Of a DNA stretch of 64,000 nucleotides, positions 13,474-53,943 are shown in pieces. The position numbers and the translations under genes are program-made. The notes beneath the pieces were generated by a model. That model saw nothing but the letters and a program-made list of their open reading frames with translations, had not been told where the DNA came from and searched no databases. How positions within the stretch are numbered: position 1 is the stretch's first letter; the number at the start of each line of letters is the position of its first letter. Location of the stretch: NCBI RefSeq assembly GCF_003610195.1, contig NZ_RAPO01000001.1, forward strand, positions 310,001 to 374,000, in the 5' to 3' direction. Source of the DNA: Halopiger aswanensis. Its GTDB lineage: Archaea > Halobacteriota > Halobacteria > Halobacteriales > Natrialbaceae.

Positions 13474-13481
13474 TTTGTTAT
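13474..13481 (-). promoter_or_regulatory. ATAACAAA box upstream of the phosphodiesterase/FemAB operon
   Basis: On the minus strand it reads GCATAACAAAGCG, with its 3' end 26 nt from ATG 13448. It is one of ten copies in the window, all in coding orientation upstream of glycan-island units. No ordinary TATA box is visible between it and the start. Confidence 0.65.
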
Positions 13482-22615: not shown

Positions 22616-22792
22616 ATGTTCCGTGCTATCCTCCCGGAAGGACAGATCGTCTGCGAACGGTACGACCACGCCGACGAGGGACTAGAACTGTACGACGAGG
22701 ACGACGAGTTCATCGGCTTCGTCCCGTACGCCAACCTCCACGCGCTGGTCGACGAGGACGCCTACGGCGAGGACGAGCGGTCGATCATGTAG
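22616..22792 (+). CDS. Small conserved haloarchaeal protein (58 aa)
   Basis: ATG 22616 lies about 26 nt after a TATA-like GGTATATTTGC (22584-22594), the leaderless arrangement. The 58 residues MFRAILPEGQIVCERY through DAYGEDERSIM are acidic and look like a small beta-rich domain (LELYDEDDEFIGFVPYANL). I recall similar short proteins from many haloarchaea but know no function. Its 3' end overlaps the convergent tfb gene by 8 nt, so transcripts of the two genes are complementary at their ends. Confidence 0.75.
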   Translation: MFRAILPEGQIVCERYDHADEGLELYDEDDEFIGFVPYANLHALVDEDAYGEDERSIM

Positions 22793-23741
22793 CGGTCGGC
22801 TGCTGGTCGATCGCCTCGAGTTGCTCGCGGTACCTGTTTCTGACCGTCACGACGGTCGTCTGCGCGGTTTCGGCGACGGCGCGCTGCGGGATCGTCTCGT
22901 CGCAGAGCAGTCCGGCGGCGTAGATGGCCGCAGCGGCGAAGCCCGTCGGCGACTTGCCCGAGTGTAGGCCCTGCTCGGTCGTCTCGTCGATGATCTCGAC
23001 GGCTTTCGTTTCCACGTCCTTCCCGACGTCCAGTTCCGAGCAGAACCGGGGGACGAACTGGCGCGGATTCGTGGGCTCTAGGTTGATGTCGAGTTCGTCC
23101 GCGATGTACCGATACGTGCGACCGATCTCGCGCTGGTCGACCCGGGAAACCGAGGTGACTTCCTCGAGGCTGCGCGGGATGTCCTCCTTGCGGCAGGCGG
23201 TGTAGAGCGCGCTGGTCGCGACGCCCTCGATCGAGCGCCCGCGGATGAGGTCCTGCTCGAGGGCGCGTCGGTAGATGACGCTCGCGGTTTCCTTGACGGG
23301 GTTGGGGACGCCGAGCGCGCTGACCATGCGGTCGATCTCCGACAGGGCGTACTTGAGGTTGCGTTCGCCGGCGTTTTTCGTCCGAATCCGTTCCTGCCAG
23401 ACCCGCAGTCGGTGGATCTGGCCCTGCTTCTCGGCCGACATCGAGTGGCCGTTAGCGTCCTTGTTGCGCCAGTCGATGGTCGTCGTCAGCCCCCGGTCGT
23501 GCATCGACTGGGTCAACGGGGCCCCCACGCGCGAAAGTTCGTCGTGTTCCTGGGCGTTGAACGCACGCCACTCGGGGCCGTAATCGATCGGGTCCTCGGT
23601 CAGGACGAGGCCGCACTCCTCGCAGACGCGCTCGCCGCGATCCGGATCGTGGACGATCGTATCGGTTTCGCAGTCGGGACACAGTTCGGCGTTCGTCTCC
23701 TGGGGGTCGTTTCTGGCGCGACCGATAATAGACTGTGTCAT
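22785..23741 (-). CDS. tfb: Transcription initiation factor IIB (TFB)
   Basis: 318 aa from ATG 23741; a GTG immediately before it is less likely. The N-terminal zinc ribbon has CPDC (21-24) and CEEC (40-43), followed by the B-finger/linker and two cyclin repeats (about 120-205 and 215-305), with the usual AAIYAAGLL helix in the second. TFB bridges TBP-TATA and RNA polymerase and reads the BRE upstream of the TATA box. Haloarchaea carry several TFBs that tune different gene sets, so this copy may be general or specialised; the sequence alone does not tell. TATA-like CCTTACAG lies about 27 nt upstream. It overlaps the small ORF at 22616 at its 3' end. Confidence 0.95.
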   Translation of the reverse strand: MTQSIIGRARNDPQETNAELCPDCETDTIVHDPDRGERVCEECGLVLTEDPIDYGPEWRAFNAQEHDELSRVGAPLTQSMHDRGLTTTIDWRNKDANGHSMSAEKQGQIHRLRVWQERIRTKNAGERNLKYALSEIDRMVSALGVPNPVKETASVIYRRALEQDLIRGRSIEGVATSALYTACRKEDIPRSLEEVTSVSRVDQREIGRTYRYIADELDINLEPTNPRQFVPRFCSELDVGKDVETKAVEIIDETTEQGLHSGKSPTGFAAAAIYAAGLLCDETIPQRAVAETAQTTVVTVRNRYREQLEAIDQQPTAT

Positions 23742-24357
23742 CACACTGGTGCAACGCTGCCGTCACTGTAAGGGGCTCACATGGTTTCGCCGGAAACACG
23801 GTCTTACTGTGGCCGCCGATGCCGGTCGATAGAGAGGAGAAAAATCGTCGGCACGGGCCACCGATCGCCCGCTCGAAACGATCGGCCGGCCCGCACCGAC
23901 GTAGTGTCCCATCGATCGTCTCCGGGCGAAGCGACCGGTCACGGTCGCCTCGACCCATTGCTGACAACGTGAACGTGGCACATGAAAGCCATCGATTGTT
24001 CCGGCCTCCCTGCGGCGTAAACAGAATGTTCATCGTGTAAACCTCGATTTCGGGACCGAACCGACGGTCCAATTTATGTCGATGGAGTCGAACGTTTTCG
24101 TGAGTGCCGTGTCGCAGACCTACATCGCGGAATCTAACATTCCGTCTTCGATAGCTGTTTCGCACGTACGCCGCCGATACGCGTCCACAGGGGCCCGATA
24201 CCGCGCCCCCGGTCGCGCCTCGAGCAGCGGGTGGGGACGCCGTCGCACCCGTCCGCCGACGGCACCGCGCAGAAGTCGTCCCGTACCGGCCTCGCCTTTG
24301 CAGCCGGTGCGAAACGTGGCCGTGTTTAAGAGTATCAGTGTTGGCGTACAACTTGGT
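23742..24357. other. Intergenic region between tfb and the first DUF7344 gene
   Basis: No reliable gene. Plus-strand TATA-like boxes occur at CAATTTATG (about 24070) and GTTTAAGAG (24324-24332); the second fits the mini-ORF starting at GTG 24358. Other open frames here are Arg-rich and probably chance. Confidence 0.4.
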
Positions 24358-30483: not shown

Positions 30484-31710
30484 TCAATCGTCCTGTGACT
30501 GATCTTGCGAAACTTCGAACGATTCCGTCTCTCCGTCGCCGACGTCGGGTTCGGGTGGCTGTGCGATATCGACTCCGAGGAGCTCGTCCCGGTGTTCGTC
30601 CAGCAGCGGCGCGCGGTCGCCCGGCTCGGGCGGCGTCTTGGCCATCTTGATCGGCGTGCCGGCGATCGTCACGGTCTCGTCGGCTTCCGGGAGGTCGGCC
30701 TCGACGAGCATCTCCCGCTGCTGGGCGTGCTCGCAGTCGTAGATGTCGGCGACGTCCTGAACTGGACCGCAGGGGACGGAGCCGTTGAGCGTCTCGAGGA
30801 CGTCCGCGGCCGATTGGGAGCTGACCCACGCCGCGATCGCCTCGCGCAGTTCGTCGCGGTGCTCGAGCCGATCCGACGCGTCGGCGTAGTCGACGGCCCA
30901 CTCGGGTTTGCCCATGTGCTCACAGAGGTTCTGCCAGTGCCGGTCGGTGAGCGCGGCGATGACGACGTAGCCGTCCTCGGCTTCGAAGGCGTTGTACGGG
31001 AACAGCGTCGGATGGGAGTTGCCGTTTCGCTTGGGGACCTCGCCGGTGTAGGAGTACTGGTAGACCGCCCGCTCGGCGAGACTCACCATCGAGTCGTACA
31101 TCGCCGTATCGACGAACTGCCCGACGCCCGTTCGCTCCCGGTAGTGCAGCGCCGCGAGGATGTTGACCGCGTGCAACACGCCGGTGAAGATGTCGCCGAC
31201 GCCGAACCCGACCTTCGTCGGCGGGCCGTCCGGCTGGCCGGTCTGGTGCATCACGCCGCCCATCGCCTGCGCGACGAGGTCGAACGCCGGCTCGTCCTGT
31301 TTGGGACTCTCGCCGGTTCGGGGATCGCCGAACCCGCGCATCGCCGCGTAGACGAGTTGCGGGTTGCGCTCGGCGAGTCGCTCGTACTCGAGGTCGAACT
31401 TCGCCATCGTCCCGGCCCGGTAGTTCTCGACGACGACATCCGCCGCGTCGACGAGCGACAGGAAATCCTCGCGATCGTCTTCGTCGGTGAAATCGAGCTC
31501 GAGGCTTCGTTTCCCGCGGTTGATGCTCTGAAAGTAGCCACCGAAGCTATCGTCCTCGTCGTGGAACGGGGGCGTTTCGCGGACGAAATCCCCGCCCGGC
31601 GGTTCGATTTTCACGACGTCTGCGCCCAGGTCAGCGAGCAACATCGTGCAGTACGGTCCGCCGAGCACGCGGGTCAGGTCGAGCACGCGGACGTCGTCGA
31701 GAGCGCTCAT
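30484..31710 (-). CDS. Family III CoA-transferase (CaiB/BaiF)
   Basis: 408 aa from ATG 31710 (MSALDDVRVLDLTRVLGGP). Family III features are present: GPYCTMLLADLGADVVKIEPPGGD, NRGKRSLELD, the stretch VVVENYRAGTM, GDIFTGVLHA and GVGQFVDTAMYDSM. These enzymes move CoA between carboxylic acids through an aspartyl-CoA intermediate; oxalate, succinate, carnitine and mesaconate types exist and the substrate cannot be told here. No other acyl-CoA gene is near. An ATAACAAA box lies 30 nt upstream of the ATG. The presence of this gene in a glycan island is odd; the downstream acetyltransferase may be functionally linked. Confidence 0.88.
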   Translation of the reverse strand: MSALDDVRVLDLTRVLGGPYCTMLLADLGADVVKIEPPGGDFVRETPPFHDEDDSFGGYFQSINRGKRSLELDFTDEDDREDFLSLVDAADVVVENYRAGTMAKFDLEYERLAERNPQLVYAAMRGFGDPRTGESPKQDEPAFDLVAQAMGGVMHQTGQPDGPPTKVGFGVGDIFTGVLHAVNILAALHYRERTGVGQFVDTAMYDSMVSLAERAVYQYSYTGEVPKRNGNSHPTLFPYNAFEAEDGYVVIAALTDRHWQNLCEHMGKPEWAVDYADASDRLEHRDELREAIAAWVSSQSAADVLETLNGSVPCGPVQDVADIYDCEHAQQREMLVEADLPEADETVTIAGTPIKMAKTPPEPGDRAPLLDEHRDELLGVDIAQPPEPDVGDGETESFEVSQDQSQDD

Positions 31711-31739: not shown

Positions 31740-31747
31740 TTTGTTAT
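31740..31747 (-). promoter_or_regulatory. ATAACAAA box upstream of the CoA-transferase/GNAT operon
   Basis: The minus strand reads CCATAACAAAACC. Its 3' end is 30 nt from ATG 31710, the position of a TATA box for a leaderless mRNA. Confidence 0.65.
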
Positions 31748-31774: not shown

Positions 31775-33571
31775 TTACGACTCGCTAGCAACGGCGTACA
31801 TCTCGTACTCCTCGTTGGAGATCACCTTATCGGCCGCTGGGTCGGTCTCGACGCCCGCAACGGCCTCTTCGCTGACATCGAGCCCTCGATAAACATCCGT
31901 TTCCCGCGTTTCGTCGAACGCCGAGATAGTGAGATAGTAGTCGACACCGCGGTAGGCGCCGCTATAGTTGCCGGCTTCGAACTGTTCGGGGTCGACCGTG
32001 CCGCTCGAGAACGCCGCGCCGCTCAGGGGAGCCTCTTCCTGGCCCTCGAGGCCGTTGATCCCGTGATCGTACCGGTAGGGATCGTACCCCAGGCCGACGT
32101 AGGGTTGATCGCCGGCCGTGTGCTCGAAGCTCGACTCGTAGCCGCTGAACTGCTCGTCGGTGACGTGCTGTGTCGGGCTGTAGATCAGCGGCGAGGCGTA
32201 GACGGTCACCAGTCCGAGCACGAGGAGCGCGCCGAGGCCGACCGACGCCACCACGTTCGCACCCGGCGTCGTGATGTACCGCGAGAGGCCGCCGATCGCG
32301 TGTGCCAGCGCGACGCCGCCGAGGATCGTCAGGACGACGTAGATGAACCCGACCTGCCGGAACGCCATCGTGGGCGTCCCGACGAAGTAGAGCGCGAACA
32401 TGATTCCGAGCGGGATCAGTCCGAGGCCGAAGTACGTGACGAACGTCGACGCCTCGCGGTCGGTCCGGGTCCAGCCGATCCAGGTCGCCAGCACGAACAG
32501 CCCCGCAACGAGGCCGATCACCGCCGCGTCGAGGAACATCTTGACGAATAGTTCGGCGATGCTACCGCCGATTTCGGTCAACGAGGTCCCGCGCTGATCG
32601 ACCTCCTGGCTAGCGCCGATGTCCGCGGAGAGCACGCCCTCGACGAGGGTCGTCACGGCGTTCCGGAACCGCTCGTTGGCGAGCGCCCAGACCGTGAACA
32701 TCCCGCCGAGCACGACCGTTTGAACGTAGGTCGTCGGGTGCTCGAGGATGGGGTGGTCGTCGTACCGGCGTCGGGCGAGAAACTGGACGCCGGCGATAGC
32801 ACCCACGAGGACGACGACGTTGACCATCTGCTGGAGGTGGACCAGCAACAAGCCGGTAGCAGTGAGGTAGACGAGGGCGCTGAACGGGGAGAGACCGAAC
32901 GGGAGCCGTTCGACCGTCGACCGGCGACGGAGGTACGTCACGAACGCGAAGATCACGACGGGAACGAGAAACAGCGCGTTCGAGTTGGTGTGGACGCCCA
33001 TGTGCGTCGCGACGTTGTTGATCGGCAGGACCATCCACGCGACGATCGCCGCGCAGCCGGCCGCCAGCCCGGTGTTGTCGATCTCTCGAGCGGCCAGCGG
33101 AGCGAAGAGCAGGAAGGGGACGAACAGGAAGACGATGGTAAACAGCAGCGCCCGCTCGATCGAGACGCCCCCGATGTAGTGGACGACCGCTGCCAGCGAG
33201 TGAGCGCCGGGATAGATCAACTCGTGGGGCGCCATATTGCCGGTGACGATGTCCCGCGTCCACCCGAGGTGCGTCAGTGCGTCGCCCATCCCGGCGAACC
33301 GGTAGTTCCGGATTACGGGGAGACTCACGATCGCCGTCACCGCCAGGCTACCGAGCCCGATGGCAATCCCTTGCTCGCGGCCGCGACAGCCGAGCGCACC
33401 GGGGAGGGCGATCGCCAACCCGATCCCCAGGCCGACCCACGTCGCCGTCGGCGTCGCCGTATACAGCGACGCCTCGTACGCGGTCGCGGGGTTCGCTCGC
33501 GCTACGAGGATTCCGACTGCGACGGCGACGAAGCCGACGGCGAACGCTGCGTCGAGTTTCGTCCGATTCAT
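31775..33571 (-). CDS. Polytopic membrane protein, possibly GT-C-like, of the glycan island
   Basis: 598 aa with about twelve to thirteen hydrophobic helices and a soluble C-terminal domain of about 130 residues (from about 465) facing the outside. The first large loop carries YRFAGMGDALTHLGWTRDI; an acidic motif in that loop is typical of GT-C glycosyltransferases that use dolichol-linked sugars, but the family is not certain. The end of the protein (AFDETRETDVYRGLDVS) is hydrophilic and acidic. A candidate leader mini-ORF (33568-33627) stops on its ATG, with GGTGAT about 8 nt upstream of the start, and an ATAACAAA box lies further upstream. It may be a polymerase, sugar transferase or flippase-like component. 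Confidence 0.75.
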   Translation of the reverse strand: MNRTKLDAAFAVGFVAVAVGILVARANPATAYEASLYTATPTATWVGLGIGLAIALPGALGCRGREQGIAIGLGSLAVTAIVSLPVIRNYRFAGMGDALTHLGWTRDIVTGNMAPHELIYPGAHSLAAVVHYIGGVSIERALLFTIVFLFVPFLLFAPLAAREIDNTGLAAGCAAIVAWMVLPINNVATHMGVHTNSNALFLVPVVIFAFVTYLRRRSTVERLPFGLSPFSALVYLTATGLLLVHLQQMVNVVVLVGAIAGVQFLARRRYDDHPILEHPTTYVQTVVLGGMFTVWALANERFRNAVTTLVEGVLSADIGASQEVDQRGTSLTEIGGSIAELFVKMFLDAAVIGLVAGLFVLATWIGWTRTDREASTFVTYFGLGLIPLGIMFALYFVGTPTMAFRQVGFIYVVLTILGGVALAHAIGGLSRYITTPGANVVASVGLGALLVLGLVTVYASPLIYSPTQHVTDEQFSGYESSFEHTAGDQPYVGLGYDPYRYDHGINGLEGQEEAPLSGAAFSSGTVDPEQFEAGNYSGAYRGVDYYLTISAFDETRETDVYRGLDVSEEAVAGVETDPAADKVISNEEYEMYAVASES

Positions 33572-33627
33572 CGCCCGTCATCACCCCCTGCTCGAGGGTC
33601 GATAGCGGCGTCGATACGAATACGCAT
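33568..33627 (-). other. Candidate leaderless mini-ORF (19 codons) coupled to the membrane protein gene
   Basis: ATG 33627 lies 31 nt after the ATAACAAA box (33658-33665). The frame encodes MRIRIDAAIDPRAGGDDGR and stops at a TGA that overlaps the ATG at 33571 (ATGA). A Shine-Dalgarno-like GGTGAT lies within the mini-ORF. The arrangement predicts translation of the membrane protein by reinitiation. Confidence 0.5.
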
Positions 33628-34059
33628 GGGTTGGCCTGAGCGTCCTCGATAGCGTGGTTTGTTATGCGGCTCCTATCGGCTGGCGTCGTCCGAGCGGCAG
33701 CTACTCCCCTCGAGCGCGGCTGCTCGCGTTTCCCGGTCGCTGTCGGGCGCCGCTACACGCCCGATCGCCGCCGTGGCTCCCAATGGTCCGTTTCGGCCGT
33801 ACGCCAGCCGCTGCGAGAGGACCGGTGACGGACGAGTCGGACTCGAGCGAACCCCGACAGGCGACCGGCGAACCGGGGTCGGGTGCTCGGGCCGCTACCG
33901 CGGGTCCGTCGTTCGTCCCGATCGACCGCTGAGGCATCGGCTAATTCACCGTACGGCGCCGTTGTCAGCGGCCGACCGGCGGCTACGCACCGATTTCACG
34001 GCGGCGAACCGAGAACGGTGCTGCAGGTTTTTGTAGCCGTTCGTAGTCCAGTACACGGT
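33628..34059. other. Intergenic region between the membrane protein and the PP-loop gene
   Basis: Holds the ATAACAAA box at 33658-33665 on the minus strand and, on the plus strand, TTTTTGTA (34027-34034) about 26 nt before the GTG at 34060. Arg/Ser-rich open frames between them are probably chance. Confidence 0.4.
33658..33665 (-). promoter_or_regulatory. ATAACAAA box upstream of the mini-ORF/membrane protein unit
   Basis: The minus strand reads GCATAACAAACC. It is 31 nt from the mini-ORF ATG (33627) and 87 nt from the main ATG (33571), so the mini-ORF start matches the usual spacing. Confidence 0.65.
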
Positions 34060-35561: not shown

Positions 35562-37157
35562 TTACTCCATGTAGCCCAGGCCCTTCAGCCGGTCCTCGAC
35601 GTCGTCGAAGTCTTCGTCGACATCGCCGTCCGGCGTCGCCACCTGCGACACCTCGGACCGCTGGACCTTCGTCGTCGCCGGCGTCGCCGACTCGTCGAAC
35701 GCGTCGAAGAGCACGCGGCCGTCGGCGTTCGCCGGCACCGGCTTTCCGATGCCGTGGAGCAGCGTCGGCGCAACGTCGACTACGCGCGCGCCCCGCAGCG
35801 TCGCGCCCGGCTCGATCGACGGGCCGCGACAGAGCATGATACCGGTGCTGCGGTGGCTCGCCGCGTAGTTCCCGGTGTCGCCGAGCACCTCGTTTTCGAT
35901 CCCGTTGCGGACGTCGTAGCCGTCGATCCCGTTGACGATCAGGTCCGGCGACTCGTCGTCGGTCGGGAACAGTTCGTCGCCGTCGTAGACCTCGAGCAGT
36001 TGCTGATCGTTCTCGTCGGTCACCGACTCGAAGACGTCGATGAGTTCCGCCTTGATCTCGGGGACGTCGCTCGGGTCGACGCGGCCGTTCTCGAACCGCC
36101 TGCTGTCGTTGATGTAACAGTTACCCGCGTCGTGGACGAACGCGACGGTACGCTCGTAGTCGACGTCGTAGAGGGCGTGATCGCCCGGAATCTGCTCGGC
36201 GACGGTGTCGAGCAGGCTGCGGGGCAGGTTCGAGACCAGCATCTCCTCCGAGATACCGACCCGCTCGAGCATGTTCGTGATGCTGTCCCGCGAGATGCCG
36301 AGGCTCGCGAGCGCGCCGCGGGTGCCCTCGTCCTCTCGTCTGAACAGGTAACCCTCGCGCTCGAGAATGTGGTTGACGTAGATCAGGTTGTGGATCTCGC
36401 CGAAGCCGTGGTCGGAGACGACGTAGAGGTCGGCGTCGTGGTCGTCGGTGTACTCGATGACCTCGCCCAGCAGATCGTCGAGTTTCTTGTAGTGCTCGAG
36501 CAGCCGGTCCATGTCCCAGATGAGGTGCTGGAAGCGGTCCGGCGCCGTGTACACGAAGAAAAACAGCTGCCAGTCGTCGCCCGCCCGATCCATCTGCAGC
36601 TGCATCACCTCTCGGCGCTGCTCGAGCATGGTCGCGACGGCCTCCTCGAACTCGTCGGGCCGGTCGGCGTACTCCGGATAGTCGAGGCTGATCTCGTACT
36701 CGCCGACGGCCTCCTCGATCTCGTCACCGAGGTCGGACGGGTGCGTGAACTCCTGATCGGTGGAGGGAGTCATCATCCCCGTTACCATCGAGCCGTCGAT
36801 ATCGCGGGCGGGGAACGTCATCGGAACGTTCCCGACGTGGGCCGGCTGGAGTTGCTCCCACAGCGGCGGCTGCTGGATGTCGTGGCTCGTGTACATCTCG
36901 TGGGTGTACTCGGCGGAGAGGTTCTGGAAGCCGTAGATCCCGTGTTTGTCCGGCCAGACGCCGGTCGCGATCGACGGCCACGCGAGCGGCGTCGTCGGCG
37001 GGCGCGTACTCTCGAGCGTGCCGGCGGCGCCTTCCTCGCGCATCCGGGCGAAGTTCGGAAGTTCGCCCTCGTCGCTCCACTGCTCGATGAGTCGCCACGG
37101 GACGCCGTCGAGTCCGAGGACGAACGCCCGCTCGGACGTGGGGGTAGATCCGCTCAT
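35562..37157 (-). CDS. Alkaline phosphatase superfamily protein (type I phosphodiesterase / nucleotide pyrophosphatase), paralogue 2
   Basis: 531 aa. It shares motif order with the gene at 11817-13448: FVLGLDGVPWRLI at the N-terminus, the nucleophile region PPTTPLAWPSIATG, DKHGIYGFQNL, the metal site SDHGFG, and HRSTGIML, with the tail RLKGLGYME. It probably cleaves a phosphodiester or phosphomonoester at or outside the membrane; no signal peptide is seen, so the site is uncertain. An ATAACAAA box lies 44 nt upstream. Between them GTG TTT TAA (37170-37162), 31 nt from the box, could be a two-codon upstream ORF. Two copies in one island suggest different substrates or steps. Confidence 0.86.
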   Translation of the reverse strand: MSGSTPTSERAFVLGLDGVPWRLIEQWSDEGELPNFARMREEGAAGTLESTRPPTTPLAWPSIATGVWPDKHGIYGFQNLSAEYTHEMYTSHDIQQPPLWEQLQPAHVGNVPMTFPARDIDGSMVTGMMTPSTDQEFTHPSDLGDEIEEAVGEYEISLDYPEYADRPDEFEEAVATMLEQRREVMQLQMDRAGDDWQLFFFVYTAPDRFQHLIWDMDRLLEHYKKLDDLLGEVIEYTDDHDADLYVVSDHGFGEIHNLIYVNHILEREGYLFRREDEGTRGALASLGISRDSITNMLERVGISEEMLVSNLPRSLLDTVAEQIPGDHALYDVDYERTVAFVHDAGNCYINDSRRFENGRVDPSDVPEIKAELIDVFESVTDENDQQLLEVYDGDELFPTDDESPDLIVNGIDGYDVRNGIENEVLGDTGNYAASHRSTGIMLCRGPSIEPGATLRGARVVDVAPTLLHGIGKPVPANADGRVLFDAFDESATPATTKVQRSEVSQVATPDGDVDEDFDDVEDRLKGLGYME

Positions 37158-37200: not shown

Positions 37201-37208
37201 TTTGTTAT
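37201..37208 (-). promoter_or_regulatory. ATAACAAA box upstream of the second phosphodiesterase gene
   Basis: The minus strand reads CTATAACAAAGCG. It is 44 nt from ATG 37157, further than in most copies, so the transcript may have a short leader. Confidence 0.6.
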
Positions 37209-37492: not shown

Positions 37493-37500
37493 ATAACAAA
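37493..37500 (+). promoter_or_regulatory. ATAACAAA box upstream of the polysaccharide deacetylase gene
   Basis: CAATAACAAAACCG, 27 nt before the mini-ORF ATG 37527 and 52 nt before the main ATG 37552. It is one of two copies on the plus strand, both before plus-strand genes. Confidence 0.65.
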
Positions 37501-37526: not shown

Positions 37527-37559
37527 ATGACGATAACGCGTGGTGGGAGCTATGGGTAG
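37527..37559 (+). other. Candidate leaderless mini-ORF (10 codons) overlapping the deacetylase start
   Basis: ATG 37527 lies 27 nt after the ATAACAAA box. It encodes MTITRGGSYG and ends at TAG 37557-37559, five nt past the start of the main gene at 37552. A GGGAG in its end may act as a ribosome binding site. Reinitiation coupling is inferred, as for 33568-33627. Confidence 0.4.
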
Positions 37560-38502
37560 TGTCGTCGTCTCACTCGACGCCGAACTCGGGTGGGGATTCC
37601 ACGACATCGATTCCCTGCCGACGGATCGAGTAGAGTCCGGCCGCCGCGGCTGGTCGGTTATGCTCGATCTGTTCTCGGAGTTCGAGATTCCCGCGACCTG
37701 GGCCGTCGTCGGCCACCTGATGCTCGAGTCCTGCGACGGGAGACACGTCGAACACCCAGCTCCGGAGGGCTGGTTCGAACGAGAGCGGACCGAGTGGGCA
37801 GATCGAGCCGATCTGCGGTTCGCGCCCGATTTAGTCGACGCGTTGCTCTCGTCCGAGATCGACCACGAGTTCGCCAGCCACTCGTTCTCTCACGTCCTCT
37901 TCGGACGGCCGGAGACGGATCACGAACTCGCCGAGGCCGAGCTTCGACGCAGCACCGAGATCGCATCCGAGTGGGATCTGTCGATCGAGACGTTCATCTA
38001 TCCGCGCAACGACGTCGGGCACCGCGACGTTCTCGCCGACCACGGCGTCCGGGCGTATCGGGGCCGCTCGCCGACGCGGGACGGCGTTCGCGGCCTCTTC
38101 GATTCGACGTTTCGCGACCACTCGCTGCTGGTCGAACCGATCGTCGACGAGTACGGGCTGGTGAACGTGCCGGCCTCGCTGTTCCTGTTCGGCTTCGAAG
38201 GACCGGCTCGAACCGTCGCGGAGTCGATCTGGGAGGATCCGATGGTCGTCCAGGCCCGGCGCGGAATCGACGAAGCCGCCGAATCGGACGGGATCTTCCA
38301 CATGTGGCTCCATCCGAACAACCTCACGCACGAGCGGGACGATCGGCGGATGCGGGCGATCCTGGCGTACCTCGACCAGAAGCGTTCGAGGACCGATCTC
38401 ACGGTCGAAACGATCGCCGACGTCGCGCGAGAGGTCGACGTCGCTCGCGGCGTCGACGGTCGGGTCACCCCCGTCGACGGGCAGACGATCGGCGACGACT
38501 AG
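37552..38502 (+). CDS. Polysaccharide deacetylase family protein (NodB-like)
   Basis: 316 aa from ATG 37552 (MGSVVVSLDAELGWG); GTG codons at 37540 and 37543 are in frame but less likely. The NodB triad is visible: Asp9 in SLDAELGWGF and the HxxxH pair in EFASHSFSHVLFG, with FIYPRNDVGHRDVL as the later conserved strand and HMWLHPNNL near the C-terminus. It would remove acetyl groups from N- or O-acetylated sugars by metal-dependent hydrolysis. No signal peptide is seen, so a cytoplasmic, perhaps lipid- or nucleotide-linked, substrate is likely. Transcribed alone behind an ATAACAAA box. Confidence 0.85.
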   Translation: MGSVVVSLDAELGWGFHDIDSLPTDRVESGRRGWSVMLDLFSEFEIPATWAVVGHLMLESCDGRHVEHPAPEGWFERERTEWADRADLRFAPDLVDALLSSEIDHEFASHSFSHVLFGRPETDHELAEAELRRSTEIASEWDLSIETFIYPRNDVGHRDVLADHGVRAYRGRSPTRDGVRGLFDSTFRDHSLLVEPIVDEYGLVNVPASLFLFGFEGPARTVAESIWEDPMVVQARRGIDEAAESDGIFHMWLHPNNLTHERDDRRMRAILAYLDQKRSRTDLTVETIADVAREVDVARGVDGRVTPVDGQTIGDD

Positions 38503-38626: not shown

Positions 38627-38634
38627 ATAACAAA
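38627..38634 (+). promoter_or_regulatory. ATAACAAA box upstream of the Gfo/Idh-DUF362-SDR operon
   Basis: Reads TGATAACAAAACCC. Its 3' end is 28 nt from ATG 38662, the TATA position for a leaderless mRNA. Confidence 0.68.
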
Positions 38635-38661: not shown

Positions 38662-39762
38662 ATGTCATCCGCAGTTCTGCGCCGATTGACCGACTCGAGT
38701 TCCCTCTCCGTGGGCGTACTCGGCGTCGGAAACATCGGCATGGTACACCTGAAGTCGGCGAGCGCAATGGCTGCTGTCGACGTGGTTGCGGCCGCCGACG
38801 CGGTTCCCGAGAACCGCGAGCGAGCCGAACGCGCCGGCGCGGAGCGGACGTACGACGACTACGCCACCCTGCTCGAGACCGAAGACCTCGACGCGGCGGT
38901 CGTCGCCTTACCCCCGTTCCTCCACGCCGACGCCGTCGAACGGGCCGCCGAGGCCGGCGTCGACGTGTTCGTGGAAAAACCGTTCGCTCGCTCGACCGCG
39001 GAAGCCGACCGGATGCTCGAGGCCGCCGAGAAGGGCGACATCGCCGTCGGCGTCGATCACACGCTGCGCTACCAGCCCGACATCGTCGGCGTCAAGGAGG
39101 CCTACGAGGACGGTAGCGTCGGGCACGTTCCGTACGCCTCGATGACGCGGCTCAACGACGGGCCGCTCGGTCGGCCGCCCGTTCAGGACCCGCCCGCGTC
39201 GTGGCCGCTCGATCCCGACGCGGCCGGCGGCGGCTCCCTGCTCGAGCTGGGCATTCACTGTTTCGACGTGCTCGAGTGGCTGTTCGGCGACCTCGAGGTC
39301 GAAAGCGCGGCCACGGGCGAGACGCTCGACGTGCCGGTCGAGGACGCCGCGACGGTCATGATGCGGGCACCCGAGACGGAGACGACGATCACGCTCCACT
39401 GCGGTTCCTACCAGTGGGAGCAACTGCCGGAGGTCAACACCCGGCTCCGCCTCGAGGGGATCACCGGGACGATCACCAATCAGGATCACCTGCCGGACAA
39501 CTTCTACGCGGGCGCGGCCAAGTCGGCGCTGTCGAACGTCGCGAGCCGCGTGGCGGACGTCGATCGGGAGGTCTTCGGCCCGACGTTCTACCTGCGGGCC
39601 CACTACCGAGCGCTCGGCGACTTCCTCGAAGCGATCCGAGAGGGCGAGACGCCGCCGGTCGACGGCGAGGTCGGTCGCCGGACGCTCGAGTTGGCGGAGA
39701 CGGCCTACGAACTGGCCGGGCGGACCGATCGCGAGGAACTCGCGCCGGAGGTGATGCCGTGA
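38662..39762 (+). CDS. Gfo/Idh/MocA family oxidoreductase
   Basis: 366 aa. The NAD-binding GVLGVGNIGMVH is near residue 18 and the family EKP motif occurs in VFVEKPFARS (about 108). A catalytic-domain GGSLLELGIHCFDVLEWLFG (about 192-211) includes the conserved His. Such enzymes oxidise or reduce a sugar or cyclitol hydroxyl with NAD(P). It leads an operon: the DUF362 gene starts within its stop (GTGA overlap), and the SDR gene follows after 2 nt. It is distinct from the Gfo/Idh gene of the diamino-sugar operon at 47178. The substrate is unknown. Confidence 0.87.
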   Translation: MSSAVLRRLTDSSSLSVGVLGVGNIGMVHLKSASAMAAVDVVAAADAVPENRERAERAGAERTYDDYATLLETEDLDAAVVALPPFLHADAVERAAEAGVDVFVEKPFARSTAEADRMLEAAEKGDIAVGVDHTLRYQPDIVGVKEAYEDGSVGHVPYASMTRLNDGPLGRPPVQDPPASWPLDPDAAGGGSLLELGIHCFDVLEWLFGDLEVESAATGETLDVPVEDAATVMMRAPETETTITLHCGSYQWEQLPEVNTRLRLEGITGTITNQDHLPDNFYAGAAKSALSNVASRVADVDREVFGPTFYLRAHYRALGDFLEAIREGETPPVDGEVGRRTLELAETAYELAGRTDREELAPEVMP

Positions 39763-43132: not shown

Positions 43133-44062
43133 TTACCGCCCCCCGGCAGCGACCCGTTCGTACAGAGAGTGCAACCGGTCGGCCGTCCGCTCCACGCTGA
43201 CCTCGCGGGCCGCCTCGCGACCGTTCGACCGCTCGCCGGACTCGAGGATCTCCCGCAGTCCTTCGATCAGATCCTCGTCGTCGTCCGAGACGAGCGAGGG
43301 ATCGACCCCCTCGAGGCGTTCCGAGACGTCGCCGACGTCGACCGAGACGACGGGCAGGTTGCAGGCCAGCGCCTCCTTGACGGAGTTCGGCGAGCCTTCG
43401 CTGCGGGAGGTCAACAGCAGGGCGTCCGCGGCGTTCATGTAGTCGGGGACGGTGTCGTGGTCGACGCCGTAGACGGTCTGTAGCCGGACCGGCCGGTCGA
43501 CGAGCCCGTTGACGGCGTTGACGAGCCGCCGCGCTCTGGGGTAATTCTTCACCTCGCGTTCGGGGAGATAGGGAAAGAGGACGTGGTACTCGTCGGGGTC
43601 CCAGCCGACGACCTCGCGGGCCTCGTCCTGGGACGCCGGCTGGAACTTCTCGAGATCGACGCCGTCGGGAATCACGCGGCAGTCGTGATCCAGCGTCTCG
43701 CGCATCTCCTCGGACATCACGACCACCTCGTCACAGAGCGGCGCACAGGTGCGGCTCACGGGCCCGACGGGGCCGTAGAGGTCAGAGCCCCACAGCGAGA
43801 GCACGACCGGTTTGCGCACCTGTGCGAGCGCCATCGGCGCCGTCAGCCCGTAGTGGGCGTGGACCAGATCGTAGCCGTTGCCAGCCTCCGCGATCACCTC
43901 GGGAAAGTACTTGAGATAGTCGGTCGGGCTCCGAGTCTTCCCGGAATCGCCCTCCCCCGACACCGGCAGCGTGGAAAACGAGACGCCGCGTCGCTCGAGC
44001 GCACGCATCTGCTCTGTCATAAACGGCGCATCGGCGTTCGTCGTCAGCGTGAGGACGTGCAT
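43133..44062 (-). CDS. Glycosyltransferase family 4 (GT4)
   Basis: 309 aa from ATG 44062 ([13 protein letters not shown]). The acceptor-side domain has [16 protein letters not shown]; the donor domain carries the E-x7-E motif in [19 protein letters not shown]. The family transfers a sugar from a nucleotide sugar with retention. It is shorter than many GT4 enzymes (about 350-400), mostly in the N-terminal half. It is cytoplasmic with no membrane helix. An ATAACAAA box lies 33 nt upstream. It is a single-gene unit in the island; donor and acceptor are unknown. Confidence 0.88.
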
Positions 44063-44094: not shown

Positions 44095-44102
44095 TTTGTT
44101 AT
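44095..44102 (-). promoter_or_regulatory. ATAACAAA box upstream of the GT4 gene
   Basis: The minus strand reads GGATAACAAAGCC, with its 3' end 33 nt from ATG 44062. Confidence 0.63.
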
Positions 44103-48212: not shown

Positions 48213-49471
48213 GTCGAGTGGTAGTGATCGTAGACTGCTTCGACGACGCTTCGCCGCTCGTCGTCGGTCAGGTTGGGGTGGACCGGCAGCGAGAGGACTT
48301 CGTTGGCTGCCGCCTCCGCCTCCGGGAACTCCGCCGCAGCCGTGCTGATCGTCTCGTAGGCCGGCTGGCGGTGGATCGGCGTGTCGTAGTAGACCGCCGC
48401 GTCGACGTTTCGCTCCTCGAGCGTCGCCGCGAGCGCGTCGCGCTCGGCTTCGTCCGCGGTCCGGACCGTGTACTGGTGGTAGACGTGACGGTAGCCCCGC
48501 GGCTCCGTCGGCGTCTCGAGCGGGAGGTCAGACAATCGCTCGTCGTAGAAGGCGGCGTTCTCCCGCCGCGCCTCGTTGAACGCGGGGAGGCGCTCGAGTT
48601 GCGTGCGGCCGATCGCGGCCGCGATGGCGGTCATCCGGTAGTTGTGCCCGAGGTCGACGTGTTCGTAGCCGCCGGTACCGGTCTCGGCGCGGCCGTGGTT
48701 GATGTAGCTCTGCGCGCGCTCGGCGAGGTCGTCGCGGTCGGTGGTGATCATCCCGCCCTCGCCGGTCGTCATGTTCTTCGTCGGGTAGAACGAGAAGCAG
48801 GCCGCGTCGCCGAACGTGCCCACGCGGTCGCCCGTGATCCGCGCGCCGTGGGCCTGGCAGGCGTCCTCGAGGACGAACAGGTCGTGCTCGTCGGCGATCT
48901 CACACAGCGCCGGCATGTCGGCGGGGAGGCCGTAGAGGTGAACCGGCAGCAGGCCGACGACGTCCGACCGCTCCGAGAGGACCCGCCGGACGTCGTCCGG
49001 ATCGAGCGTGTAGGTTTCGGGATCGACGTCCGCGAAGACCGGCTTCGCGCCGGCCAGTCGGATCGCGTTCGCGCTCGCGACGAACGAAAACGGCGAGGTG
49101 AGCACCGCGTCGCCGTCCTCGACGCCCAGCGCCTCGAGTGCGGCGTGCAGCGCCGTCGTCCCGTTCGAGGTCGCGACGGCGTGATCCGAACCGCAGTACG
49201 CGGCGAATTCCGACTCGAAGGCCCTAACTTCGGGACCGTCCGCCATCGCCCCGCTCTCGAGGACCGATCTGACGCGCTCGATCGCGTCCGCGCTGACGTC
49301 GGGGTCCGCGATCGAGACTGACGGGAGCGAGTCGGACGTCTCGACGGCGGCCTCGGTCGTCTCGGCCGGGTCGACGTTGCTGGCCGTCGGCTCCGGCTCC
49401 GGTTCCGGTTCCGATTCCGATTCGGGTTCCGGTTCCGCTTCGGTCTCGGTATCGAGGTTCGTGTTACTCAT
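48209..49471 (-). CDS. DegT/DnrJ/EryC1/StrS aminotransferase (WbpE/WlbC-like)
   Basis: 420 aa. A 55-residue Glu/Pro-rich extension precedes the enzyme, which begins VSIADPDVSADAIERV. PLP residues: EDACQAHGARITG (Asp near 200) and the Schiff-base lysine in CFSFYPTKNMTTGEGG. The last part includes HVYHQYTVR and LPVHPNLTDDE, family hallmarks. It would aminate the 3-keto group produced by the neighbouring oxidoreductase, giving a 3-amino sugar nucleotide. It overlaps the acetyltransferase gene upstream and the 3-dehydrogenase gene downstream by 4 nt each (ATGA). Confidence 0.9.
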   Translation of the reverse strand: MSNTNLDTETEAEPEPESESEPEPEPEPTASNVDPAETTEAAVETSDSLPSVSIADPDVSADAIERVRSVLESGAMADGPEVRAFESEFAAYCGSDHAVATSNGTTALHAALEALGVEDGDAVLTSPFSFVASANAIRLAGAKPVFADVDPETYTLDPDDVRRVLSERSDVVGLLPVHLYGLPADMPALCEIADEHDLFVLEDACQAHGARITGDRVGTFGDAACFSFYPTKNMTTGEGGMITTDRDDLAERAQSYINHGRAETGTGGYEHVDLGHNYRMTAIAAAIGRTQLERLPAFNEARRENAAFYDERLSDLPLETPTEPRGYRHVYHQYTVRTADEAERDALAATLEERNVDAAVYYDTPIHRQPAYETISTAAAEFPEAEAAANEVLSLPVHPNLTDDERRSVVEAVYDHYHST

Positions 49472-50073
49472 GCTAGATCGTTCGGTCCCTCGAGCGGTTC
49501 GGGCAGCTCCTGGATCGTCGCGGGCGTTCCCACCGCGAGGCTGTTCGGCGGCACGTCCTCGGTGACGACGGCGCCGGCAGCGACGAACGCGTTCTCCCCG
49601 ATCGTCACGCCCGGCAGCAAGGTCGCGTTCGCGCCGACCGAGGCGCCGTCCTCGATCGTCGGCCCCTCGAGGTCGGCGTCCGTCCGAATGGGGTACTCGT
49701 CGTTGGTCAGGACGGCGCTCGGGCCGACGAAGACGTTGCTCCCGATGGTCGTCTGGGTCGGAACGTAGACGTTCGTCTGGAGGCTGACGTGCGAGCCGAT
49801 CGTCGTCTGGCCGTCGATGACCGTCTTCGTGCCGACCAGTACGTCGTCGCCGATCTCCGTTCCTTCGCGCACGAGGACGTCATGGCCGGTCGCGAACCCG
49901 TCGCCGATCGTCACGTCGCCGTAGACGATCGAACCGGCCCGGATCGTCGCGTCGTCGCCGATCCGCGTCGGCTCGTCGAACTCGCCGTAGCCGACGGTCG
50001 CGTCGGCGTCGATCGTGCAGTCCTCGCCGCGGACGACGTCGTCTGCGTCCGCGTCGCGGACGGCCTCGCTCAT
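49468..50073 (-). CDS. Hexapeptide-repeat N-acetyltransferase (WbpD/WlbB-like), first gene of the diamino-sugar operon
   Basis: 201 aa from ATG 50073 (MSEAVRDADADDVV). The frame continues upstream without an ATG; a GTG further up is possible but the sequence there is not conserved-looking. The protein is a left-handed beta-helix with hexapeptide turns (DDVLVGTKTVIDG, TIGSHVSLQTNV, TIGSNVFVGPSAVL) and the usual PPNSLAVGTPA end. It resembles acetyltransferases acting on the 3-amino group of UDP-sugars. It heads the five-gene operon; the ATAACAAA box at 50290-50297 is 217 nt upstream, leaving a long leader. Confidence 0.85.
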   Translation of the reverse strand: MSEAVRDADADDVVRGEDCTIDADATVGYGEFDEPTRIGDDATIRAGSIVYGDVTIGDGFATGHDVLVREGTEIGDDVLVGTKTVIDGQTTIGSHVSLQTNVYVPTQTTIGSNVFVGPSAVLTNDEYPIRTDADLEGPTIEDGASVGANATLLPGVTIGENAFVAAGAVVTEDVPPNSLAVGTPATIQELPEPLEGPNDLA

Positions 50074-50237
50074 CGCGCGACACCTCCGCCGTCCGTCGGT
50101 CGTGCCGGTCGCGTCGGTCGGTTCGAGTGGGTGGGGGTCGGCCCACTCGCGCGACTCGTCGGGGGCGAGGACGGTCCTGTTCTCGAACACGTCCGAACGC
50201 GCACTCGCACTCGTCGTCGTCGGTGATGCTGTGTCAT
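50070..50237 (-). other. Possible upstream ORF (55 codons) ending on the acetyltransferase start
   Basis: ATG 50237 opens a frame that stops at a TGA overlapping ATG 50073 (ATGA). It is Arg/Pro/Thr-rich, and its start is 53 nt from the ATAACAAA box rather than 26-31, so chance is a real possibility. It is listed because the ATGA junction matches other mini-ORFs in the window. Confidence 0.25.
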
Positions 50238-50289: not shown

Positions 50290-50297
50290 TTTGTTAT
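50290..50297 (-). promoter_or_regulatory. ATAACAAA box upstream of the five-gene diamino-sugar operon
   Basis: The minus strand reads GAGATAACAAAACC. It lies 217 nt before the first recognised start (50073), so either the operon has a long leader or the leader contains an upstream ORF. Confidence 0.6.
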
Positions 50298-51649: not shown

Positions 51650-52648
51650 CTACTCGGCCGCGTCCTCGGTGACGGTCACCCAGAAGTAGGTGTCCGCCTC
51701 GGCGTTTTCGTTCGTCGGTTCGGCCGGCGGCTCGCCGGGATAGAGCAGGAGACTGATTCGAACGGTCTCGCCGTCGCCAGCCGTCGGCTCGATCTCGTGC
51801 TCGGCGACGCCCGTCGCGTCGGCCGAGACAGTCCCGTCGATCTGCCTGAGTTCCGTCCGCTCGACGACTTCACCGTCCTCGAGCACCTGTTCCTGGACGA
51901 CAACCGTATACGAGGTCTCCTCGCCCTCGTGGTTCTCGATCGCGAACGAGACCGGCACGGACTCGCCGGGTGCCACCTCGTCCGGGAGTTCGCCGGCGAC
52001 GAGATCGCCGTCCTCGTCCTCGGTGTAGAGGGCGAGTTCCGAGAACCCGCCCGTCGACGCCGGAAAGAGGAAGCCGACGAGCAGCGCCCCGCCCGCGAGC
52101 GCAATCGCGACGACGAGGAACACTGAGGAGGCGGTCGCGACCGTCCCCTCGTCCCGGCGCAGTCGCGCCAGTGCCGCCGTCAGCGAGACTGTAAACCGGT
52201 CCGGAGCGGGCGTCCGGAGCCGTCGGATCACGCCCAGTTGCGCGAGGACGACGGTGAGGCCGGCCAGCACCGCCGCGGCCGATTCGGTCGCCAGTCCCCA
52301 CTGCGTCAGCGGGAGAACGATTCCGACGACGGGCACGATCGCGATCGACAGCGCGAACGACAACCCGAGCCGTTCGATCGTATCGATTCCCCGGGGCCGG
52401 CGCTCGATCGCCGTCTCCGCGTCCGCTCGAGCGTCCCGGGCTGCCGCCGGGAAAAGAACGGAGACGAGGGCATAACCCGGCAAGAAGAGAACGAGCGGGA
52501 GCGCGGCGAGCAGCCGACCGGCGTTCCCGGCCGGAACTCCGGTTACAACGAGTGCTACGAGCGCCGCAAGCAGCGAGGTGAGCGCCAGATCGACCGGATA
52601 CTTCCGGATGAAACCCAGCTGAGGTCGAGAATTCGTCGGAAAACTCAT
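51650..52648 (-). CDS. DUF1616 family membrane protein
   Basis: 332 aa from ATG 52648 (MSFPTNSRPQLGFIRKYP). Four hydrophobic helices in the first 200 residues (DLALTSLLAALVALVVTGV, LAALPLVLFLPGYALVSVLF and two more), followed by an external domain with a beta-sandwich look (EVAPGESVPVSFAIENHEG, EPTAGDGETVRISLLLYPGE). DUF1616 proteins occur beside archaeal glycosylation and polysaccharide genes; the function is unknown. A mini-ORF of 18 codons ends on its ATG, and an ATAACAAA box precedes the mini-ORF by 30 nt. Confidence 0.82.
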   Translation of the reverse strand: MSFPTNSRPQLGFIRKYPVDLALTSLLAALVALVVTGVPAGNAGRLLAALPLVLFLPGYALVSVLFPAAARDARADAETAIERRPRGIDTIERLGLSFALSIAIVPVVGIVLPLTQWGLATESAAAVLAGLTVVLAQLGVIRRLRTPAPDRFTVSLTAALARLRRDEGTVATASSVFLVVAIALAGGALLVGFLFPASTGGFSELALYTEDEDGDLVAGELPDEVAPGESVPVSFAIENHEGEETSYTVVVQEQVLEDGEVVERTELRQIDGTVSADATGVAEHEIEPTAGDGETVRISLLLYPGEPPAEPTNENAEADTYFWVTVTEDAAE

Positions 52649-52701
52649 CGCTGACTCACCGGTTGTCGTGTCGGTTCGACGCTCGTCGATCCAGCTACCA
52701 T
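52645..52701 (-). other. Candidate leaderless mini-ORF (18 codons) coupled to the DUF1616 gene
   Basis: ATG 52701, 30 nt after the ATAACAAA box (52731-52738), encodes MVAGSTSVEPTRQPVSQR and stops at a TGA overlapping the ATG at 52648 (ATGA). A GGTGA lies shortly before the main start. An alternative reading, main start at 52720, would lie only 11 nt from the box, which speaks against it. Confidence 0.52.
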
Positions 52702-52730
52702 TGTGACCGAAACGGTGCATTCGCTATTGT

Positions 52731-52738
52731 TTTGTTAT
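52731..52738 (-). promoter_or_regulatory. ATAACAAA box upstream of the mini-ORF/DUF1616 unit
   Basis: The minus strand reads CCATAACAAAACAA. It is 30 nt from the mini-ORF ATG and 83 nt from the DUF1616 ATG. Confidence 0.65.
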
Positions 52739-53036: not shown

Positions 53037-53312
53037 CTAAAAATCGACGTACTGTGCTTCCCATTCGCGTCGTTCCTCGATCCGCTGTCGACCGGCGTCC
53101 GTGATCGCGTAGTAGTTCGTTCGGCGGTCGAGTTGCCCCTTCTCGACGAGATCCTTGTTGACGAGCGTATCGAGGTTCGGATACAGTCGCCCGTGATTGA
53201 TTTCCGAGCTATAGTACTTCTCGACCTCGTCTTTGACTGTTTGGCCCGATGGGCGGTCAGCGCCCGCGATCACGTACAGCAGATCCCGCTGGAAGCCGGT
53301 CAGATCGTGCAT
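53037..53312 (-). CDS. PadR family transcriptional regulator
   Basis: 91 aa. MHDLTGFQRDLLYVIAGADRPSGQTVKDEVEKYY then INHGRLYPNLDTLVNKDLVEKGQ, a wing RRTNYYAITDAG, and a final REWEAQYV: a compact PadR winged helix without the longer C-terminal dimer arm. PadR proteins are usually repressors that bind palindromes in their own and neighbouring promoters. It carries the same ATAACAAA box (35 nt upstream) as the glycan genes, so it may autoregulate or belong to the same regulon. It is the closest regulator to the island. Confidence 0.86.
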   Translation of the reverse strand: MHDLTGFQRDLLYVIAGADRPSGQTVKDEVEKYYSSEINHGRLYPNLDTLVNKDLVEKGQLDRRTNYYAITDAGRQRIEERREWEAQYVDF

Positions 53313-53346: not shown

Positions 53347-53354
53347 ATTTGTTA
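53347..53354 (-). promoter_or_regulatory. ATAACAAA box upstream of the PadR gene
   Basis: The minus strand reads GGATAACAAATATC. It lies 35 nt from ATG 53312. Unlike most copies it is followed by TATC rather than ACC or GCC. Confidence 0.55.
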
Positions 53355-53610
53355 TCCGTGTCGTACAGCGTTGTTAGCTCATCTTTCAATAATAGTACGG
53401 AGAATAAAATATGGCTTCCCGTGACGGTCATGCAACAACGAACGGATTCGATAGGACCGGAAATCAGCTCATACGAACGATCTCCCCGGGGAAATATCCG
53501 GCAGGGATCGGTATCAACGAGTGAGAATCACGCCGTGCGTTCGATGTCGGCCGTCCGTTCATCGGTCGTCTCGCCGAGCCAGTCCGATCGATCAGAACCT
53601 ACCGTCGATG

Positions 53611-53943
53611 TCAGGGATCGGCATTCGCCAGCGCAACGTCGATCCCGTCCGAACCGATTCGGACCCGCAACTGGTCGACCGTCGCTTCGTAGGCTGTCGT
53701 GTGCGATCCGTCGTCCTCGAATCGAACGCACTCCGCGAGGAGATCGCTCTCGAGCAGATTGTTGATTCGTCGATAGACGGTTGCGGACGAACTGTCGGTC
53801 CGTTTGGTCAGTTCCTTGGCTGTTTTCGGGCCGTCGCTCGTTGCGACGAGAATGGTACGCGCACACTCGTCGCCGAGGACGTCGAGCTGGGCCGTCGACT
53901 CCGCGGTCAGTTCCGATCGGGTGTTACTCGCTTGCGTGGACAT
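53611..53943 (-). CDS. ArsR-like winged-helix regulator
   Basis: 110 aa. The domain runs QLDVLGDECARTILVATSDGPKTAKELT, recognition helix SSSATVYRRINNLLESDLL, and a wing GSHTTAYEATVDQLRVRIGSDGI; the tail is short. This is a haloarchaeal ArsR/HTH_20-like protein with no cysteine metal site, so not a metal sensor of the classical kind. A good TATA-like GTTATAAAATACC on the minus strand (about 54103-54115) would leave a leader of about 130 nt. It stands alone; target unknown. Confidence 0.82.
   Translation of the reverse strand: MSTQASNTRSELTAESTAQLDVLGDECARTILVATSDGPKTAKELTKRTDSSSATVYRRINNLLESDLLAECVRFEDDGSHTTAYEATVDQLRVRIGSDGIDVALANADP

Follow-up and report, generated by a model that had tools for sequence, protein, structure and literature searches.

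A directional box and stop-start-coupled mini-ORFs upstream of polysaccharide-island genes in Halopiger aswanensis and related haloarchaea

The stretch of the Halopiger aswanensis genome analysed here (64,000 nucleotides, hereafter the window) carries on its minus strand a gene for a DUF1616 protein whose sequence reads as hydrophobic and membrane-like; PMC8241124 lists an H. volcanii DUF1616 protein among glycoproteins, with 2 or more TM. Upstream of the gene lie a mini-ORF and a copy of a short box, ATAACAAA.

51650-52648, minus strand: DUF1616 protein, 332 aa (Pfam PF07760, E 2.5e-97), with its start taken from the conserved junction
52645-52701, minus strand: putative 18-codon starter mini-ORF, MVAGSTSVEPTRQPVSQR, with its ATG at 52701, 29 nt after the box
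52731-52738, minus strand: ATAACAAA box, candidate DUF1616 promoter, with GATAG at 52750-52746 as upstream half

The TGA of the mini-ORF (52647-52645) overlaps the DUF1616 ATG at 52648 to form ATGA, and an SD-like GGTGA is contained in the 3' end of the mini-ORF. The original prediction had described a box, 30 nt, an ATG, 18 codons and ATGA at this gene and, in the same layout, at a companion at 33568. The layout holds at both genes, except that the DUF1616 gap measures 29 nt instead of 30 and that the companion mini-ORF, which precedes a gene for a 598-aa protein, has 19 codons instead of 18.

31775-33571, minus strand: 598-aa protein, membrane-like by reading, with no Pfam match
33568-33627, minus strand: putative 19-codon starter mini-ORF, 30 nt after the box; its TGA (33570-33568) overlaps the ATG at 33571 (ATGA)
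33658-33665, minus strand: ATAACAAA box of the 598-aa gene, with GATAG at -12

A mini-ORF in a single genome could be a product of chance, and the upstream regions of related DUF1616 genes had been proposed as the place to look for box, mini-ORF and junction. We searched 125 genomes of the family, 123 of which matched, and compared the 87 best-scoring loci, one per genome and from 19 genera (genus labels were entered by hand from the match table). Box, mini-ORF and junction are present in 87/87, which excludes chance, although the counts are not independent events since the loci are related by descent. The box is exact in 85 loci and carries one mismatch in 2; the box-to-ATG gap ranges from 27 to 34 nt (29 in 39 loci, 34 in 20, 28 in 13, 30 in 11 and other values in 4); and the mini-ORF stop overlaps the DUF1616 start as ATGA in 83 and as GTGA in 4. 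Mini-ORFs of 16, 17, 18, 19, 20, 21, 23, 30, 42, 46 and 48 codons occur, and the coupled frame is held at all 11 lengths, whereas the other two frames of the mini-ORF interior are open in 44 and 55 of the 87 (Markov null 0.62). Against this stands the finding that coupling is also seen for 8 of 81 other ATGs within 250 nt upstream. In Natronococcus pandeyae (L030), whose DUF1616 protein is 62% identical, the box is followed after 34 nt by a coupled 21-codon mini-ORF, and four more distant DUF1616 loci of the same family all display this architecture (4/4). By comparison of relatives, box, spacing, frame and junction are thus all conserved features.

The same loci bear on where DUF1616 translation begins. 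In H. aswanensis the gene has an open in-frame extension upstream (a 356-aa reading), so that the gene might start at the in-frame ATG at 52720, or at another upstream start, with the mini-ORF an accident. We reject this reading as barely credible. Only 10 nt separate the ATG at 52720 from the box, and the equivalent ATG in a genome of the same genus (G009) is out of frame with DUF1616 and leads into the mini-ORF instead. In 32/87 loci a stop codon downstream of the mini-ORF ATG and ahead of the DUF1616 start closes the DUF1616 frame, and an accidental mini-ORF is at odds with a frame and junction kept throughout the 87.

Conservation at the 598-aa gene is equally strict. Among the best 30 loci of the 114 genomes matched, all 30 have an exact box, a gap of 29 or 30 nt and a coupled mini-ORF of 14-19 codons (ATGA in 29, GTGA in 1), and 0 of 31 other upstream ATGs couple. 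For further genes we scanned 22 islands, comprising the window and 17-76 kb around DUF1616 from 21 relatives (907,854 bases). The shared layout at two genes without sequence similarity, as originally described, is borne out and extends to a third island family, that of a hexapeptide acetyltransferase; a looser form precedes a polysaccharide-deacetylase-like gene.

49468-50073, minus strand: hexapeptide-repeat acetyltransferase (PF00132), 201 aa from the coupled start
50070-50237, minus strand: 55-codon acetyltransferase mini-ORF, gap 52 nt, ATGA junction
50290-50297, minus strand: ATAACAAA box of the acetyltransferase gene
37493-37500, plus strand: ATAACAAA box of the polysaccharide-deacetylase-like gene
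37527-37559, plus strand: 10-codon mini-ORF, gap 26 nt, overlapping the gene start by 8 nt (ATGGGTAG)
37552-38502, plus strand: polysaccharide-deacetylase-like protein, 316 aa (PF01522, below its curated cut-off)

The acetyltransferase has an RTGA-coupled ORF of 18-64 codons in 19/22 islands, with the 52-nt gap in 17/22; the copies of the other three islands (G016, G045 and G096) do not fit the coupled layout. In the deacetylase-like family, an ATG at a gap of 25-27 nt opens an ORF of 9-14 codons in 15/15 islands, which, as judged by reading, terminates at the presumed gene start or slightly within the gene. The view that the mini-ORF hosts are membrane proteins applies, by reading, to DUF1616 and the 598-aa protein but, judging from their Pfam families, not to the acetyltransferase and deacetylase-like proteins, whose genes carry mini-ORFs as well. 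By eye, the stretch between the acetyltransferase box and mini-ORF (50289-50238, minus strand; GCCTCGTTACCGGCTGTATCAG...) is strikingly conserved between genera, more so than the mini-ORF, and is a candidate leader or operator.

The substitution pattern indicates that the junction rather than the peptide is conserved. In 126 pairs of DUF1616 loci from the same genus, of equal length and at most 30% different, differences at codon positions 1/2/3 number 433/592/386 in the mini-ORF and 995/758/1988 in the start of DUF1616; at the 598-aa gene (18 pairs from any genus, at most 35% different) the corresponding numbers are 58/52/32 and 209/163/404. DUF1616 is thus under protein-level selection, of which the mini-ORF peptide gives no sign, and with no third-position excess and a frame kept through 11 lengths, it is the linkage that is conserved more than the peptide. 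This comparison bears directly on whether the mini-ORFs act as attenuators, encoding regulatory leader peptides whose stalling senses an amino acid or small molecule. Short ORFs directly upstream of genes would suit such a role and, by eye, M-x-x-V-S-S-like beginnings recur in part of the DUF1616 mini-ORFs and M-R-I-D-like ones in much of the 598-aa set. Conservation would be expected of a stalling peptide, however, and neither set has a third-position substitution excess; moreover, lengths vary from 13 to 64 codons, no common codon run was seen and the stop is kept in the junction. We consider attenuation very unlikely.

Comparison also places an SD-like motif at the end of the mini-ORF. An SD-like 4-mer occurs in the 20 nt before DUF1616 at a frequency of 0.90 (n=87; shifted windows 0.09-0.29) and ends 5-9 nt from the start in 75/87 loci, as against 0/87 in a window shifted by 60. 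Before the 598-aa gene the frequency is 0.77 (n=30; shifted windows 0.03-0.50), but here the strict SD position is occupied in only 16/30 (control 1/30). The anatomy seen so far would also serve a mini-ORF that lowers expression, a uORF that captures ribosomes of which only part re-initiate, so that the product is kept low, and of the three genes that are clearly coupled, two appear to encode membrane proteins. We regard such throttling as unlikely, though less so than attenuation, since the SD-like motif situated 7-8 nt before the start in 63/87 DUF1616 loci and the exact overlap favor efficient hand-over, and the regulon has other genes that lack a mini-ORF.

The arrangement extends beyond the family. 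We assembled 58 DUF1616 loci from nine other families, hand-picked from the higher-scoring rows, with several genomes giving more than one paralog; partial matches, at least one full match (G139:C101) and 2 further regions were left out. An exact box lies within 300 nt upstream in 15/58 of these homologs, and 11 of these 15 have a coupled mini-ORF of 14-34 codons at a gap of 26-38 (ten of the loci belong to family f17 and one to f12); no exact box lies within that distance in the remaining 43/58. An origin of the mini-ORF within a single family was accordingly dropped, box and coupled mini-ORF preceding DUF1616 in two other families. A search for the bare box-ATG-ATGA pattern, which matched 104/125 family genomes, was set aside as too loose for a count, as the reversed control also matched some.

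The box itself occurs ten times in the window as an exact copy, against 0.06 expected (mean of 100 shuffles, none of which reached 10). It is asymmetric, and all ten copies are oriented toward a downstream start, with a box-to-start gap of 25-35 nt at 8/10 and of 43 and 52 nt at the remaining two. Besides the four boxes above, these are as follows.

53348-53355, minus strand: ATAACAAA box of a PadR-type regulator gene, gap 35, no mini-ORF
53037-53312, minus strand: PadR-family winged-helix regulator, 91 aa, adjoining DUF1616
38627-38634, plus strand: ATAACAAA box of a Gfo/Idh oxidoreductase gene (38662-39762), gap 27, direct start
37201-37208, minus strand: ATAACAAA box of a phosphodiesterase-family gene (35562-37157), gap 43
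44095-44102, minus strand: ATAACAAA box of a glycosyltransferase gene (43133-44062), gap 32
31740-31747, minus strand: ATAACAAA box of a CoA-transferase III gene (30484-31710), gap 29
13474-13481, minus strand: ATAACAAA box of a second phosphodiesterase-family gene (11817-13448), gap 25

The whole genome (4.87 Mb) holds 29 copies, versus 24 of the reversed control pattern, and 12 of the 29 fall within 80,194 bases; the probability of finding at least 10 of 29 copies in this 64 kb is 2.5e-12. Thus, the excess is a cluster and there is no genome-wide surplus. The boxes of a GNAT gene (L011) and a glycosyltransferase-like gene (L012) are members of the 12-copy cluster. Outside it, some copies look genuine: four precede genes with a PadR-like start (L018, L019, L028, L029) and one precedes the gene of a formyltransferase-domain protein (L015). 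The remaining ones may be background. Two of the PadR-like cases (L028 at C11:1599 and L029 at C13:2869) are near-identical box-PadR units on small contigs (36 and 18 kb) that may be plasmids or viruses, which suggests mobile copies of the unit. Far from the island, a box also precedes the gene of a secreted-looking protein (L014, at C2:46244), in whose first 474 aa no Pfam match was found.

Across the 22 islands we counted 143 exact boxes, whereas the mean count for the 55 other permutations of its letters is 4.9; permutations that look frequent partly overlap a box (TAACAAAA in 38/42 cases, AACAAATA in 20/25 and AATAACAA in 11/23). At 140/143 boxes, a gene start in the same direction (ATG or GTG, at least 90 aa) or a coupled mini-ORF lies 15-60 nt downstream, the first choice being an ATG gene at 74, a coupled mini-ORF at 58, a GTG gene at 8 and none at 3. 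Because GTG starts are easily found by chance, we restricted the controls to ATG starts (a gene of at least 90 aa or a coupled mini-ORF): these occur at the same distance after 132/143 boxes, compared to 9/143 on the opposite strand and 30, 5, 25 and 9 of 143 at shifts of +300, -300, +700 and -700. Coupled ATG mini-ORFs follow 60/143 boxes, compared to 5, 3, 1, 2 and 3 in the five controls.

When the downstream proteins were clustered, and some of the clusters merged by hand, ten families with at least 2 sites emerged. Direct starts characterize the glycosyltransferase (8/8 sites), CoA-transferase (5/5) and phosphodiesterase (17/19) families, the other two phosphodiesterase sites (G048 and G119) having a coupled 28-codon ORF; the oxidoreductase and PadR families also start directly, as judged by constant offsets of 27-28 and 35-36. 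The island genes are largely concerned with polysaccharide and include glycosyltransferases, Gfo/Idh oxidoreductases, a UDP-sugar dehydrogenase, an aminotransferase and the acetyltransferase, deacetylase-like and phosphodiesterase-family genes. A 662-aa protein with HerA-like and coiled-coil matches (15139-17127, minus strand) was found only in the H. aswanensis and a same-genus genome among the 22 islands, not all of which reach its position. The secreted-looking protein (L014) was considered as a further coupled case with a GTG mini-ORF and dropped. Among its 25 orthologs, one (L229) is cut short and not assessable and one (L243) lacks an exact box, which leaves an exact box in 23/24 assessable loci and a coupled ORF in only 7/23 of these. 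Box and coupling are therefore separable, and the coupling test is one that can fail.

We next considered the sequence around the box, using a profile over the ten gene families (gene clusters hand-merged) in which each family is weighted equally. Upstream, G-T-A stands at -11 to -9 (A at -9 in 94%); downstream there are C at +10, W at +23 (89%), Y at +33 (74%) and R at +34 (76%). If transcription starts at +34, the box covers -33 to -26, W falls at -11 and Y/R forms the initiator. Apart from the box, nothing near the TATA position is strongly AT-rich in the averaged profile, and neither CGAAA nor TTWT stands out there. The TATA position, the W at -11 and the lack of another AT-rich element in the profile lead us to read the box as a core-promoter element, with a predicted transcription start about 26 nt downstream of it. 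Upstream of 486 long island ORFs, the distribution of AT-rich hexamers has one maximum at -35 to -31 relative to the first ATG, adjoining the box positions, and a larger one near -60 that the box does not explain. Not every case would be strictly leaderless: with a start at +34, the gaps of 34-35 nt (20 DUF1616 loci and PadR) and 52 nt (acetyltransferase) would leave leaders of about 9-27 nt. The canonical haloarchaeal promoter, as given in the accessible sections of PMC4983044, consists of a CGAAA BRE, a TTWT TATA element and a WW at -10; the box resembles it in its position relative to the start codon and in the W at about -11, and differs in placing ATAACAAA at the TATA position with an extra G-T-A 11 bp upstream.

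The adjacent PadR, an HTH_20-type protein encoded at 53611-53943 and a TFB are candidate readers of the box. A tentative alternative to the core-promoter reading, which we hold to be possible though doubtful, is that the box is the operator of a sequence-specific regulator, in that case most likely the adjacent PadR, overlapping each promoter, with the mini-ORFs working as proposed below. The PadR gene has its own box in 77/125 family genomes (reversed control 0) and adjoins DUF1616 in 22/22 islands, where it is at least 90% identical, compared to 55-67% for DUF1616 in other genera; 4 further boxes of this genome precede genes with a PadR-like start (one Pfam-checked), and the site is bipartite with an 11-bp period. 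Yet each genome has at least 4 PadR relatives, so the high identity of the island PadR is not special, and the two closest PadR paralogs in H. aswanensis (C11:29226 and C5:136501) are at none of the 29 exact boxes. Dimeric PadR proteins usually bind palindromic sites, unlike the asymmetric box with its single direction at all ten window sites, and the averaged profile shows no strongly AT-rich element besides the box near the TATA position. The island PadR was also rejected as a unique marker, having many close paralogs. The PadR-box pair was matched only in its own family (45/293 genomes of the order). By eye, the 35-nt PadR leader (53347-53313, minus strand) is near-identical across genera and contains short inverted repeats (TCACTGTGA), a possible PadR operator at the start site; a paralog class has TGTGATCACA nearby.

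The HTH_20-type regulator (110 aa, 53611-53943, minus strand) lies directly upstream of PadR and is present in 22/22 islands at 74% identity or more; no exact box precedes its gene in the window. A TFB (TFIIB-type) gene at 22785-23744 (minus strand), near a gene for an XPB/RAD25-like helicase at 18123-20117, was found in 7/22 islands, several of the regions ending before its position. We considered this TFB as the reader of the box and set it aside, as beyond its position nothing links it to the box. Two TBP genes were found, both on other contigs. A bolder form of the core-promoter reading, to which we give somewhat less than even weight, is that ATAACAAA and the upstream G-T-A half-site replace TATA/BRE in a separate haloarchaeal core-promoter class with a dedicated basal or TFB-like reader, that part of its regulon uses disposable leaderless starter ORFs to initiate translation of genes otherwise unable to use their SD start, and that the arrangement is older than the divergence of at least three haloarchaeal families.

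In its simpler form, the reading that we think probable is that ATAACAAA serves as the promoter core of a surface-polysaccharide regulon giving nearly leaderless mRNA, and that the mini-ORF is a starter handing ribosomes to the gene by termination-reinitiation. The box and the G-T-A half-site 11 bp upstream would form the core of a shared promoter class, and at the TATA position of a leaderless promoter the box, once bound, would drive transcription and set its start about 26 nt downstream. For many box genes, the first AUG of the resulting leaderless or nearly leaderless mRNA would be the gene's own start; for DUF1616, the 598-aa protein and the acetyltransferase it would be that of a short starter ORF instead. 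A ribosome starting at or near the 5' end would translate 13-64 codons without conserved meaning, stop at the UGA inside AUGA or GUGA and re-initiate on the overlapping start, helped by the SD-like GGTG or GGAGG in the last codons of the mini-ORF. Selection would act on translation itself and on the junction, and not on the peptide, and we infer that the effect on the downstream gene is positive.

This proposal draws on work in H. volcanii, for which the sections of Huber et al. 2019 (PMC6728339) available to us state that 72% of transcripts are leaderless, that SD motifs are inactive for de novo initiation and used for reinitiation at overlaps, and that coupling was strict in nine tested overlapping pairs. 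With the SD motif reportedly inactive for de novo initiation, a gene start away from the 5' end needs a ribosome delivered to it. The overlapping pairs of that haloarchaeon share with our loci the ATGA overlap and an SD motif within the upstream frame; there the partners are genes, whereas here the upstream partner is an ORF of 13-64 codons without a conserved product (PMC6728339, same sections). The hallmarks of termination-reinitiation pairs, a 4-nt stop/start overlap and an SD motif inside the upstream ORF, are present at our loci.

The closest parallel is found in mycobacteria, where coupled leaderless small ORFs are backed by start-site, profiling and mass-spectrometry data (Shell et al. 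2015, PMC4633059, as far as the text was accessible). These too combine a leaderless start, a short ORF and a TGA inside an RTGA with the downstream start, and in a mycobacterial example the linkage is conserved and the sequence is not, as here. The present set differs in that it is archaeal, box-preceded, located mostly in one polysaccharide island and known from sequence comparison, and it is kept in 87/87 DUF1616 loci of one family plus 11 loci of two more. A small ORF ending in RTGA, as defined there, is found in 87/87 DUF1616 loci, 30/30 598-aa loci and 19/22 acetyltransferases; three of the acetyltransferase mini-ORFs exceed 50 codons and so lie beyond the mycobacterial-type range of 5-50 aa. 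In H. volcanii, uORFs of 15-31 aa in leaders of 150-250 nt, one of them before the agl15 flippase (Babski et al. 2016, PMC4983044), resemble our mini-ORFs as short ORFs before haloarchaeal genes, but the sections available to us report no overlap with a gene start and no box. Ribosome-delivering short ORFs have been proposed in general, citing the mycobacterial work, in the accessible part of a review (PMC12548453); a term search of the retrievable text of PMC10666635 returned no uORF or small-ORF passage. Within a literature search by title and abstract, which covered few subscription papers, neither the box nor a haloarchaeal mini-ORF set was described, and as far as searched, an archaeal, box-defined and deeply conserved mini-ORF set in a polysaccharide regulon appears to be new.

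These loci provide a clean natural test of whether ribosome delivery can be the sole role of a short leaderless ORF in archaea. A compact and strictly positioned motif would define a surface-polysaccharide regulon and point to a transcription factor. For annotation of these genomes, the starts of box genes are easily misassigned and their mini-ORFs easily missed.
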